A stretch of 64,000 bases of DNA from Sporosarcina pasteurii (GTDB lineage Bacteria > Bacillota > Bacilli > Bacillales_A > Planococcaceae), in the NCBI RefSeq assembly GCF_041295575.1, contig NZ_CP160452.1, forward strand, positions 1,178,001 through 1,242,000, given 5' to 3'. The translations under genes and the position numbers were made by a program. Each line of letters begins with the position of its first letter. Within the stretch, counting starts at the first letter, position 1. Shown here in pieces: positions 1,929-55,522 of the stretch. Under the pieces are notes generated by a model, which was not told the DNA's origin, ran no database searches, and was given only the letters and a program-made list of their open reading frames with translations.

Positions 1929-1967
1929 TTAAACTCCTCCTATATTAGTCTGATAAAGTTGAGTACT

Positions 1968-3233
1968 TCAACAGCTAGGGGCTTCATTACATTTACTAAA
2001 GTAAGCAGCAAGTAATTTAGCGCCATTTAGCAGGGACTGGCTATCAGTGTATTCATCCGGATGGTGGCTAATGCCTTGACGACACGGAATAAATAAAAGA
2101 CCGCTCGGCCAACGTTTAGCCATGTTCATCGCATCATGACCCGCTCCACTGTCCATTATCATCGAAGACAAATTTAATTCTTCACACAGCTCGGCGAGGA
2201 CTCCTTGAATGTTGATATCGAGTTGAATTGGCGGATCGTCAGCAAGCGTTTCGATATGGAAGGTAACGGACCTTTTAACTTCTGTGTGCTGAATAAAAGA
2301 TAGGATAACTTCAACCATTTCTTGTTTTAAATCCGCATTTGTACTGCGAATATCGACCCCGATGACAACTTGTCCAGGAATCATATTCATGGCATTAGGA
2401 CTAGCTTTGATCGTGCTTACGGTTGCCATTACTGGAATCGATTGCCGCTCGTTCATTTGAAGTGCGGCGCTTTCAACGTGGCTAATTAATCCCGCTATTG
2501 CAACCAGTGCATCTTGACGATCATTCATAGGTGTAGTGCCTGTATGGTTTGTCATGCCTTCACAAGTAATCAAAAGCCGTGTCGGTTGTGCGATTGCACG
2601 AACGATGCCGATATCTTTCCGGGTTTTTTCTAACAATCGTCCTTGTTCGATATGGATTTCGATAAATTGTTCGAATGCATCTGTTGCTAGCTCCGCTTCT
2701 TGAATATCTTGCCAATTCAACCCGCTATCATTCACGGCTTCTTGAAGTGTAATGCCATTTGTATCTTTGAGATTCGCAACGCGATCAGTATTTAGTAATC
2801 CGCAAACGGCCTTGCTTCCAATCGTTGACACCCCAAACCGTGCGGATTCTTCACATGCAAATGCAACAATGGCAATGTTTTTAACAGGCTTAAATTGTTT
2901 AGCCTTAAGAATTTTCACTGCTGCGAAGGCGGTTAGTACGCCTGCAACACCGTCATAGCCGCCGCCATTATAAACGGTATCCAAGTGTGATCCAGCGGCA
3001 ATTGTACTTGCGTTTTCATCTACTTTCCATACAGCCCATTGATTGCCTGCAGAATCTTGATGTGTTTCTAAGCCGAGATTTTGAGCAATCACCCGAAACT
3101 GTTCATGTGCGTCTTGTTCTTCTTTTGTATAGCCAAGACGAGAAAAGCCTTTTGGCTGATTCATATCGTTTGTTAGATTTAATTGCAATAAAGTTTCTTG
3201 AATCCAATGTAATAGATTTTCTATTGTGATCAA
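1968..3233 (-). CDS. M20 Zn-dependent amidohydrolase (allantoate/N-carbamoyl-amino-acid hydrolase type)
   Basis: The 421-residue product matches the HyuC/AllC branch of peptidase M20, which hydrolyses N-carbamoyl-L-amino acids, allantoate or ureidoglycolate. Metal-site motifs are visible: GSHLDTVYNGGGYDG (His, Asp), CEESARFG near residue 128, EIHIEQG near 193, and the late His in GISHHPDEYT. The usual lid domain lies between about residues 215 and 330. The start is a TTG at 3233 very close to a GGGA run; the N-terminus MITIENLLHWIQ fits the family, but the spacing is poor, so the exact start is uncertain. It leads a minus-strand group with the abgB remnant and abgT. Which carbamoyl or ureido compound is used cannot be told from sequence. 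Confidence 0.87.
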   Translation of the reverse strand: MITIENLLHWIQETLLQLNLTNDMNQPKGFSRLGYTKEEQDAHEQFRVIAQNLGLETHQDSAGNQWAVWKVDENASTIAAGSHLDTVYNGGGYDGVAGVLTAFAAVKILKAKQFKPVKNIAIVAFACEESARFGVSTIGSKAVCGLLNTDRVANLKDTNGITLQEAVNDSGLNWQDIQEAELATDAFEQFIEIHIEQGRLLEKTRKDIGIVRAIAQPTRLLITCEGMTNHTGTTPMNDRQDALVAIAGLISHVESAALQMNERQSIPVMATVSTIKASPNAMNMIPGQVVIGVDIRSTNADLKQEMVEVILSFIQHTEVKRSVTFHIETLADDPPIQLDINIQGVLAELCEELNLSSMIMDSGAGHDAMNMAKRWPSGLLFIPCRQGISHHPDEYTDSQSLLNGAKLLAAYFSKCNEAPSC

Positions 3234-3482
3234 TCCCTTTCGAAAGTTTTGTTAGTAACTAAGATAGGTATGCACTTATTTTCGGTAGAATGATAGTTTA
3301 TGCAATGAGTTGTTTCAATATTTTAGGTAAATGGTTTATCTATTCTTGTTCAGTTGACAGATTTTTTAGTTTCTTTACACGATACAATAAAACACCCTCG
3401 ATGTCTATAAAAGATGGTATTCTGTTTTAATTGGAAAAGTATGTTAGAGTAGTATTCAATATAAGAATCTGCATATTTGCAG

Positions 3483-3520
3483 GAGAGGTTCGCAATTCCA
3501 TCCCTCGATAAAAAACTAGG
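3483..3520 (+). promoter_or_regulatory. preQ1-I riboswitch aptamer
   Basis: The compact aptamer reads GAGAGGTTCGC, then AATTCC, then ATCCCTCGATAAAAAACTA. The GAGG/CCTC stem, the short loop and the A-rich tail that folds back as an H-type pseudoknot are the hallmarks of class I preQ1 riboswitches. It is followed at once by a terminator and then the queuosine genes, which is the expected arrangement for ligand-induced termination. Confidence 0.9.
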
Positions 3521-3525
3521 AGCGC

Positions 3526-3556
3526 AAAACAACACTCCTTTTGTGTTGTTTTTTTT
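3526..3556 (+). terminator. preQ1 riboswitch expression-platform terminator
   Basis: A perfect 10-bp stem (AAAACAACAC at 3526-3535 with GTGTTGTTTT at 3543-3552) ends in a run of T. It begins six bases after the aptamer, so ligand-dependent folding can control read-through into the que genes. Confidence 0.88.
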
Positions 3557-3606
3557 GATGTGAAGAGGCTCGAATCTCTCAAACTTGTTAGAGAGAGGGA
3601 GATAAA

Positions 3607-3726
3607 ATGAATAACGAAAATGAAATTTTGGTAATTAGTAGAGGTCAGGATAGTACGACGTGCTTATCACTTGAACTTGTTCTTGTAGAAAATGTGTCGA
3701 GAAAAAAGGGGGCTGAAGTAGAATGA
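3607..3726 (+). pseudogene. queC: queC remnant: 39-codon ORF keeping the PP-loop start and the coupling to queD
   Basis: Behind GGGAG, an ATG at 3607 opens MNNENEILVIS, then RGQDSTTCL, which is the ATP-binding PP-loop at the start of QueC (7-cyano-7-deazaguanine synthase; normally S-G-G-Q-D-S-T-T). One glycine is replaced by arginine. The frame then jumps to a short lysine-rich end (RKKGAEVE) and stops in an ATGA overlap with queD, as an intact queC would. QueC is about 220 residues, so about 180 codons, with the zinc site, are missing. The deletion keeps the frame, so translation would still be coupled to queD. A working queC would have to be elsewhere in the genome. Confidence 0.75.
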
Positions 3727-4160
3727 TGCAACAAATTTATCCAGTTGTCCCTCATGACTATGCCTATGAGATTAATAAAGATTTCCATTTTGCAGCGGCT
3801 CATTATGTTCCGAGCACGGATGCTGGTAAATGTCAGCATATACATGGACATACGTATTTTGCTAACATCACAATCGTTGGTGATACGCTTGACCATTCAG
3901 GGTTCCTTGTGAACTTTAAAACAATAAAGGATTTGGTTCACCGTCGTTTTGATCATCGTGTGTTGAATAAAGATGCAGCGTTTTCCGATGAGGATCCTTC
4001 CTATTTTCCAACTTCAGAAGTCATTGCACGGACGATTTATGAAATCGTTCAAGCACACTTGGATACGCTGGACAATCAACCGAAATGTGTTCAAGTATTT
4101 TTAAGGGAAACGCCGACAAGTTACTGTGTTTATCGCCCAAAGGAGGCGTCATCGCAATGA
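3723..4160 (+). CDS. queD: 6-carboxytetrahydropterin synthase QueD
   Basis: QueD converts 7,8-dihydroneopterin triphosphate to 6-carboxy-5,6,7,8-tetrahydropterin, the second step of preQ0/queuosine synthesis. The 145-residue length fits. The zinc-binding and catalytic residues are visible in FHFAAAHYVP and in C-Q-H-I-H-G-H-T-Y around residues 38-46, and a late conserved E in FLRETPTSYCVY. Two ATG codons (3723, 3726) are possible. The gene overlaps the queC remnant by an ATGA and overlaps queE in the same way, so the three are one operon under the preQ1 riboswitch. Confidence 0.93.
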   Translation: MMQQIYPVVPHDYAYEINKDFHFAAAHYVPSTDAGKCQHIHGHTYFANITIVGDTLDHSGFLVNFKTIKDLVHRRFDHRVLNKDAAFSDEDPSYFPTSEVIARTIYEIVQAHLDTLDNQPKCVQVFLRETPTSYCVYRPKEASSQ

Positions 4161-4879
4161 CAATTCCTGTACTTGAGATATTTGGTCCGACCATCCAAGG
4201 GGAAGGGATGGTCATTGGGCAAAAAACAATGTTCGTCCGGACGGCAGGTTGTGATTATTCCTGTTCATGGTGTGATTCCAAATTTACATGGGACGGATCA
4301 GAAAAAAAAAATATTAGAAAAATGAATGCGAAGGAAATCTTGGATGCATTAATAGAAGAAGGCGGCGACCGATTTGGTCATGTCACCATCTCAGGGGGAA
4401 ATCCAGGATTACTTCCGCAATTAAATAGTTTAGTCGACTTGTTGCATGCACAAGGTATAAAAATTGCACTGGAAACACAAGGAAGCAGATGGCAGCCGTG
4501 GTTTACAAAAATCGATGAGCTCACACTTTCACCAAAGCCGCCAAGTTCCGGAATGCAAACAGACTTTTCCGTGCTGGATCAAATCATTGAATCATTGAGT
4601 ATTGAGCAAAAAGGGACATTCAGTTTGAAGATTGTTGTTTTTGATGATGAAGATTTGGGCTATGCAAGGAAGGTGCACCAAAGATATCCTACAGTAGAGT
4701 TATTTATTCAGGTCGGAAATGATGACCTTCAAAAGGCAAATGAAGCGGAGTTACTGGTTCATTTACTAGAAAGATATGAGCGGCTAATTGACCAAGTAAT
4801 GGCTGACAAGGAATTAAAGCATGTACGTGTTCTGCCACAGCTACATACGTATTTGTGGGGGAATAAACGAGGCGTTTAA
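4157..4879 (+). CDS. queE: 7-carboxy-7-deazaguanine synthase QueE (radical SAM)
   Basis: QueE is the radical-SAM enzyme that turns carboxytetrahydropterin into 7-carboxy-7-deazaguanine. The 240-residue product starts EIFGPTIQGEGMVIGQ, the family's N-terminal signature, and has the cluster motif C-D-Y-S-C-S-W-C followed by DSKFTWDG. A glycine-rich SGGNPGLL segment contacts SAM. The frame is open further upstream, but the ATG at 4157 sits 10 nt after AGGAGG and overlaps the queD stop as ATGA, which decides the start. It is the last gene of the que unit; a short GC hairpin follows at 4918. Confidence 0.94.
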   Translation: MTIPVLEIFGPTIQGEGMVIGQKTMFVRTAGCDYSCSWCDSKFTWDGSEKKNIRKMNAKEILDALIEEGGDRFGHVTISGGNPGLLPQLNSLVDLLHAQGIKIALETQGSRWQPWFTKIDELTLSPKPPSSGMQTDFSVLDQIIESLSIEQKGTFSLKIVVFDDEDLGYARKVHQRYPTVELFIQVGNDDLQKANEAELLVHLLERYERLIDQVMADKELKHVRVLPQLHTYLWGNKRGV

Positions 4880-4916
4880 ATGCAATGAAAAAATCTTAGT
4901 AATCAGCGCAAAACTT

Positions 4917-23831: not shown

Positions 23832-23972
23832 ACGGGCAGTAAAACTCTCAACTGCCCGTAAAAGCCCGATTGGTTCGGGCCAACAGGAGTGTGTCACACA
23901 AGCGTTGTCACAGGGCGTGACGCTTTTAGCTTTTGTTCATCAGTTGGGGATGAGGACCCCCAATGATTGAAG
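23832..23972 (+). mobile_element. Probable IS200/IS605-type end (omega-RNA-like multi-hairpin remnant)
   Basis: A gene-free stretch folds into four clean hairpins: ACGGGCAGT (23832)/ACTGCCCGT (23851), GCCCGA (23864)/TCGGGC (23875), GTCAC/GTGAC near 23900-23920, and TTGGGG (23944)/CCCCAA (23958), then TGATTGAAG. This series resembles from memory the 3' end of tnpB genes with their omega-RNA and right-end hairpin. No tnpB or tnpA coding sequence is present, so it would be a solo remnant or miniature element. The family link is not proven. Confidence 0.4.
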
Positions 23973-44811: not shown

Positions 44812-44916
44812 CTTTTCTTATTAGGAGAGACGGAGGGAATTGGCCCGACGAAGTCTCAGCAACCTGCTAGCTGGTAAGGTGCTACATCCAACAGGCGAAC
44901 CTGAATGATGAGAAGA
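44812..44916 (+). promoter_or_regulatory. SAM-I (S-box) riboswitch
   Basis: The core is plain: GAGAGACGGAGGGA, then TTGGCCCGACGAAGTC, CAGCAACC, a GCTAGCTGG hairpin, AAGGTGCTACATCC and a closing GATGAGAAG. This is the S-box layout, with the GA(C/U)GAA and GGTGCTA(A/C)(A/T)TCC motifs. GAGAAG can pair further with CTTCTC at 44935, part of the switch platform. It normally controls methionine or cysteine genes, but here a small unknown ORF follows. Confidence 0.9.
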
Positions 44917-55314: not shown

Positions 55315-55495
55315 TGAAGTAAGGATAGAGGCGCAAAAACCATTAGTACACAACCTGAGGATAATGAGGTCCGATGATGATTGTGGAAAGGGGGATTTGC
55401 CGAAGTGGAGAGAGACTCATTTTTCTCGAAGCTGGTTCTGGGTTGAATAAGCTCAGGATTGTCATATAGGAGACTATATGGAGGGCTATCTTTTT
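55315..55495 (+). promoter_or_regulatory. Lysine riboswitch (L-box)
   Basis: Recognisable pieces: P1 GATAG (55324-55328)/CTATC (55486-55490), GAGGCGCAAAAACCATTAGTA, AAAGGGGGATTTGCCGAAGT near 55387, and GGAGACTATATGGAGGGC at the end. This is the L-box order. It lies directly before a terminator and dapA, so lysine would stop transcription of the first lysine-branch enzyme. Confidence 0.9.
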
Positions 55496-55522
55496 GCAAA
55501 GAAATAATTTATTATTTCAGCT

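Follow-up and report, generated by a model that had tools for sequence, protein, structure and literature searches.

The window, the whole stretch of 64,000 nucleotides of Sporosarcina pasteurii DNA analysed here, carries a preQ1 riboswitch followed by an open reading frame of 39 codons and by queD and queE (Table 1). The original prediction read this frame as a queC cut down to 39 codons, whereby the last preQ0-forming enzyme would be lost, and offered a second queC, uptake of preQ0 or preQ1, or retention of the frame for translational coupling as explanations. The locus raises the question of what this short frame is and how its shortening is tolerated.

Table 1. Features of the queuosine locus and other RNA elements of the window (window coordinates)
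Feature	Positions	Strand	Basis
preQ1-I riboswitch aptamer	3479-3525	+	RF00522, 37.5 bits, E 2.8e-6
Competing hairpin AGGAG/CTCCT	3518-3539	+	palindrome scan (reported on the minus strand)
Intrinsic terminator hairpin, then T run	3526-3552	+	10-pair stem and T tail
Shine-Dalgarno-like AGGGAG before the short frame	3596-3601	+	read from the sequence
queC remnant, 39 codons	3607-3726	+	residues 1-20 match the N-terminal part of QueC, SRG replacing SGG
queD	3723-4160	+	TIGR03367, 91.5 bits (cut-off 89.25); PF01242; start inside the stop of the remnant
queE	4157-4879	+	TIGR03365, 372.8 bits (over cut-off); overlaps queD by ATGA
Bacillaceae-1 RNA	23880-23945		
SAM riboswitch	44815-44914		
Lysine riboswitch	55318-55496		

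The frame starts with ATG and is translated as MNNENEILVISRGQDSTTCLSLELVLVENVSRKKGAEVE (39 residues). As predicted, it runs into queD, its stop and the queD start sharing ATGA at 3723-3726; the same overlap was found in four of the five full queC genes examined. Shuffle tests (500 shuffles each) compared the remnant of the window and that of genome G067, the closest of 66 relatives by rpoB (98.4% over 692 residues), with five full QueC proteins. Alignment of residues 1-20 to the QueC N-terminus scored 56-78, and in none of the ten tests did any of the 500 shuffles reach the score, the highest shuffle scores being 30-41. The whole frame has a weak match to the NCBIfam QueC model (E 0.038, residues 6-24) and no Pfam match at 0.01. 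For residues 20-39 taken alone, 66-238 of 500 shuffles scored equally well against QueC (12-108 for the G067 remnant), and these tests do not support the C-terminal half of the window remnant as a QueC homologue; for this reason, the exact ends of the deletion are left unstated. The reduction of queC to 39 codons is therefore borne out for the roughly 20 N-terminal QueC codons kept. The claim that the middle was removed in frame agrees with the position and frame of the remaining half, which match the old end of queC and suggest its origin, but these residues are unrecognisable by themselves.

The predicted PP-loop word survives in part: QDSTTC is kept, but the word reads SRGQDSTTC and not SGGQDSTTC, the second residue of the P-loop being arginine in both species. 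This SRGQDS departs from the canonical SGGxDS of QueC, one of the motifs defined in the consulted sections of PMC13329287. The motifs YxQxHxxE, VPxRN, YPDC and C(x)8CxxCxxC were not seen in the 39 translated residues. The product would be a peptide of no more than 39 residues, lacking an intact P-loop, the substrate motifs and the zinc site.

The riboswitch before the remnant is present, as had been stated, together with a terminator and a competing hairpin. The score of its aptamer lies just below the RF00522 gathering score of 39, and the element is unlisted at the gathering threshold; its assignment to the preQ1-I family is, from sequence, hardly in doubt, since the orthologous element of G067 reaches 46.9 bits. 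The hairpin AGGAG/CTCCT is likely an antiterminator excluding the terminator. The segment 3525-3562 folded alone gives -10.6 kcal/mol (z -2.65).

The genome of the window (G000), a single contig of 3.30 Mb, contains one full-length queC at G000:C1:1018098-1018712 (PF06508, 273 bits), on the same chromosome and 163 kb from the remnant. Three further PF06508 matches are partial (profile positions 1-70 at most, 21-23 bits) and are taken for other ATPases. The full gene heads a cassette queC-yhhQ-queF (PF06508, PF02592, PF14489; TIGR00364, TIGR03139). Its product (L005:6075-6734) scores 273.4 bits with PF06508 and 269.2 with TIGR00364, passing the cut-offs of 22 and 150.3, and 303.8 bits with another QueC model, NF008317, under the cut-off of 378. 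By family scores, P-loop, YPDC and zinc motif, the cassette copy is a canonical QueC; SGGxDS, YPDC and C(x)8CxxCxxC are intact in all 18 cassette-type copies. These copies also have VEGRN at the VPxRN position (18 of 18), and YxQxHxxE occurs in 11 of 18. Since VPxRN is also missing from 22 of 75 operon QueCs, a special substrate of the cassette QueC was set aside.

Genes for TGT and QueT are also encoded, the QueT gene being preceded by a strong preQ1 element (55.9 bits). Directly before the cassette queC lies a preQ1-I-like element that runs into a GGAGG Shine-Dalgarno sequence (25.5 bits, E 0.0019; below the Rfam gathering score of 39 and absent from the whole-genome search listing). In 11 of the 16 other cassette genomes (G006, G011, G025, G029, G030, G031, G042, G051, G062, G063, G064), an element in the corresponding place reaches E 0.001, in each case scoring below the gathering threshold; none was found at E 0.001 in G027, G050, G056, G059 and G067. 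From the leaders, preQ1 thus appears to control both halves of the pathway, acting on one through termination and on the other probably through translation. The genome search for queC, queF and a transporter, suggested together with the prediction, accordingly returned cassette queC, queF, YhhQ and QueT. Of the explanations offered, a second queC proved right; the loss of the last preQ0-forming enzyme is true of the operon locus only, and loss of the preQ0 step from the cell is ruled out by the second gene.

The operon itself probably differs in origin from the genome around it. The window QueD is 97% identical to that of G067, and the next best among 261 genomes of the family (78 matched, own genome included) is 61%. 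Among named genomes, the value is 83% for Oceanobacillus rekensis and 81% for a Pseudogracilibacillus MAG, and further Oceanobacillus and Lederbergia-like loci lie at 71-76%. For QueE, identity to the MAG is 87%, compared with 55-60% for genus-mates. In a QueE tree of 22 genus rows and loci L012-L060 (49 of 80 named loci), G000 and G067 group with the MAG (100/99) and then with two Oceanobacillus (81/81); constraining the 22 genus QueEs to one clade is rejected (p-AU 0.0005). Since QueD does not exceed 61% in the family outside G067 and QueE groups with the MAG and Oceanobacillus, the queD-queE operon is, judged by these relationships, foreign to the genus and family and probably horizontally acquired. 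In the same tree, the QueEs of L015 (titled Bacillus subtilis DE0224) and L037 (Sporosarcina globispora DSM 4) cluster with those of Lederbergia and Cytobacillus, which may reflect wrong names or transferred genes.

Among the 80 named loci around related queE, 75 have a queC match, four have none (L012, L013, L017 and L019) and one, L081, is cut by a contig end. The Pseudogracilibacillus MAG (L012) has an ORF of 20 codons, beginning with MNNQKAM and ending in ATGA. In L013 and L017, the riboswitch leads directly to queD with no queC ORF, and in L019 about 550 bases without recognisable queC (L019:3011-3561) separate the two; by eye, this segment resembles a repeat insertion. Loss of queC is thus graded in related operons, with 39, 20 and 0 codons kept, the last in three Oceanobacillus. 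The genomes of L012, L013, L017 and L019 each contain one full queC match (E 1e-10), in all four cases beside yhhQ, and five control genomes with operon queC have one match each, at the operon. Within the genus, queD and queE occur together in 22 of 68 genomes, with an operon queC in 20, including G042, which also has the cassette, and a remnant in two. All 31 queDE genomes searched (22 of the genus and nine named) contain a queC. Outside the genus, queC stands before queD in 25 of 28 family loci; the three without a queC match there, L285, L286 and L291, belong to another genus, and by eye have a preQ1-like leader and terminator leading straight into queD. In the genus genome G036 (G036:C67:232974-234924), queD and queE lie about 850 bases apart, with a TAG inside the QueD match.

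The QueEs of the six queC-less operons, one of them (L012) from a MAG, form a clade with support of 85/85. A single ancestral loss of queC would fit this clade, but moving L019 to the queC-bearing group is not rejected (p-AU 0.22), and different parts of queC are retained in the 39- and 20-codon ORFs, so that the present state may reflect one loss or several. The Pseudogracilibacillus MAG (L012, L158) has the same cassette type as the window genome, 84-88% identical, in addition to the shortened queC, which suggests exchange in either direction, or a binning error.

The fate of the remnant was followed by comparison with G067, in which a 39-codon ORF occupies the same site (L092:948-1067) between the same flanks, and the same cassette is present (L146). 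Among the loci read, this is the one further species with the 39-codon ORF, and its genome likewise has a full queC; the short frame is not a feature of many relatives that lack the full gene. Its presence in two separate genomes, 14% diverged, also leads to rejection of the idea that a genuine queC lost its middle part through faulty assembly or sequencing, a reading for which nothing speaks except the shortness of the ORF and whose probability is negligible. Over 1947-4883 of the window, DNA identity to G067 is 94%. The 166 bases of leader before the remnant differ by three substitutions and one indel, the remnant by 16 of 117 bases (14%), queD by 23 of 435 and queE by 39 of 720. No difference was found between the divergence of the remnant and that at the synonymous sites of queD plus queE (41 of 246, p 0.54), and whole queD (p 0.004) and queE (p 0.002) have diverged less than the remnant; at nonsynonymous sites, the remnant is far more diverged than queD (p 0.0003) and queE (p 0.001). 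Since the leader barely differs while the rate of change in the remnant is close to that of synonymous sites, the leader appears to be held while the remnant drifts, which looks like decay.

The same data bear on the proposal that the short ORF persists because it is translated as a leader, with ribosomes terminating at ATGA and reinitiating on queD, so that queDE would be translationally coupled. The frame open in two species with the ATGA junction kept, the ATGA at the end of the 20-codon version in the MAG and a remnant dN/dS of 0.40 (10/92 versus 6/25 sites; p 0.11 against 1) agree with it, and a weak constraint on the remnant may accordingly exist. However, in simulated neutral histories, the frame stays open by chance with a probability of 0.29-0.37, about one third, and the ORF changes no differently from synonymous sites, faster than queD or queE. 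A run of GGGGG lies upstream of queD itself, and coupling is not needed in those relatives in which queD follows the riboswitch without a queC ORF (L013 and L017, and by eye L285, L286 and L291). Positive support for coupling was not found, and it is an unlikely account of the short frame. Dependence on preQ0 or preQ1 uptake, with the operon a dying relic, is still less probable. The transporter genes yhhQ, beside the cassette queC, and QueT were indeed found, and 28 of 68 genus genomes are without queC at E 1e-20, yet TGT is over cut-off in 66 of 68. However, full queC and queF are also encoded in the window genome, and its queD and queE, the latter the sole TIGR03365 match in the genome, are intact, dN/dS in the comparison with G067 being low (0.08 and 0.16). 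Very probably, therefore, the remnant is the decaying queC at the head of an acquired operon of preQ1 riboswitch, (queC), queD and queE, and the cell tolerates its loss thanks to the QueC encoded in the separate queC-yhhQ-queF cassette.

From the sequences and gene content, we infer the following scheme for the operon and the cassette. When preQ1 is scarce, the leader would fold as the antiterminator, and the transcript would pass through the remnant into queD and queE, whose products would make CDG. The cassette QueC would convert CDG to preQ0 and QueF would convert preQ0 to preQ1, which TGT would insert in tRNA. With ample preQ1, the aptamer would close and the terminator would stop the queDE transcript, while the preQ1-I-like element of the cassette, ending in the Shine-Dalgarno sequence, would lower cassette translation.

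In leader type, queD-queE order and ATGA overlaps, the locus agrees with the Bacillus-type operon of preQ1-I riboswitch, queC, queD, queE and, in some cases, queF, in which queC lies upstream of queD; it differs in the 39-codon queC and in the location of queF, which is in the cassette and not in the operon. Remnants of genes displaced by a homologue elsewhere in the genome are of a known kind, and the present case resembles them in that the redundant operon queC is eroded and the homologous cassette copy is intact. Unlike them, the queC remnant heads an intact operon still under its leader, and shortening or loss of queC recurs in related operons. No literature treating preQ1 riboswitch, queC and pseudogene together was found.

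In the genus, queC is present in 40 of 68 genomes, in 17 of them in the cassette. Fourteen cassette genomes are without queD (E 0.001) and without queE over cut-off: G056, G027, G064, G011, G030, G031, G062, G025, G050, G029, G059, G063, G006 and G051 (loci L255-L262, L264, L265, L267 and L269-L271), among which G027 has a weak radical-SAM match (7e-4) and G059 has a completeness of 83% and a contamination of 9%. Genomes G003, G016, G046 and G058 also have queC without queD and without queE over cut-off (weak sub-cut-off matches in G046 and G058), with no yhhQ or queF match within about 1.5 kb of queC. In these four, a preQ1 element lies just before the lone queC (L139, L135, L140 and L127, respectively). 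The 14 cassette-only genomes resemble the 'Ac' variant, which the consulted sections of PMC6593275 describe as QueC, QueF, TGT, QueA and QueG/QueH without QueD/QueE, with a predicted salvage of CDG. The idea of CDG salvage is thus not new, being given in those sections already; in the literature searched, CDG uptake was found as that prediction, with no test of it. The window genome has the same cassette but, with queD and queE, falls outside the definition of 'Ac' (QueC, QueF and TGT present, QueD and QueE absent); in it and in G067, the foreign queDE would complete de novo synthesis.

The order of events may be read from two trees. In the rpoB tree (one tree, midpoint-rooted, 67 genomes; G057, in which rpoB was not found, left out), G056, with the cassette only, and G045, with neither, form the sister group of G000 and G067. 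In the QueC tree (89 rows, operon copies from L012-L060 only), the cassette QueC of G056 is sister to those of G000 and G067 (100/87). The simplest history would be cassette first and foreign queDE later, and by the queDE transfer the lineage of the window may have regained de novo synthesis; alternatively, queDE may have been lost in G056 and G045. A fuller scenario is put forward tentatively, with somewhat less than even confidence. In it, queD and queE would have disappeared from the ancestor of G000 and G067, which would have relied on imported CDG by way of the YhhQ-QueC-QueF cassette; this ancestor would then have taken queDE from a donor like Oceanobacillus or Pseudogracilibacillus, regaining de novo queuosine synthesis, and the donor queC, redundant on arrival or already shortened, would have been left as a stub.

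As what is left of a redundant gene, the short frame is ordinary; its interest comes from its history. The absence of a gene from its operon does not by itself imply that the step is absent, as QueC is here encoded at a distance behind a second preQ1-I-like leader, and the series of 39, 20 and 0 codons shows how a redundant gene disappears from the front of an operon with a riboswitch leader. With genotypes that include de novo, cassette-only, both and neither, the genus would lend itself well to tests of CDG uptake. If the tentative scenario is true, the stub would be the trace of an auxotrophy that was overcome when transferred genes joined a salvage pathway.
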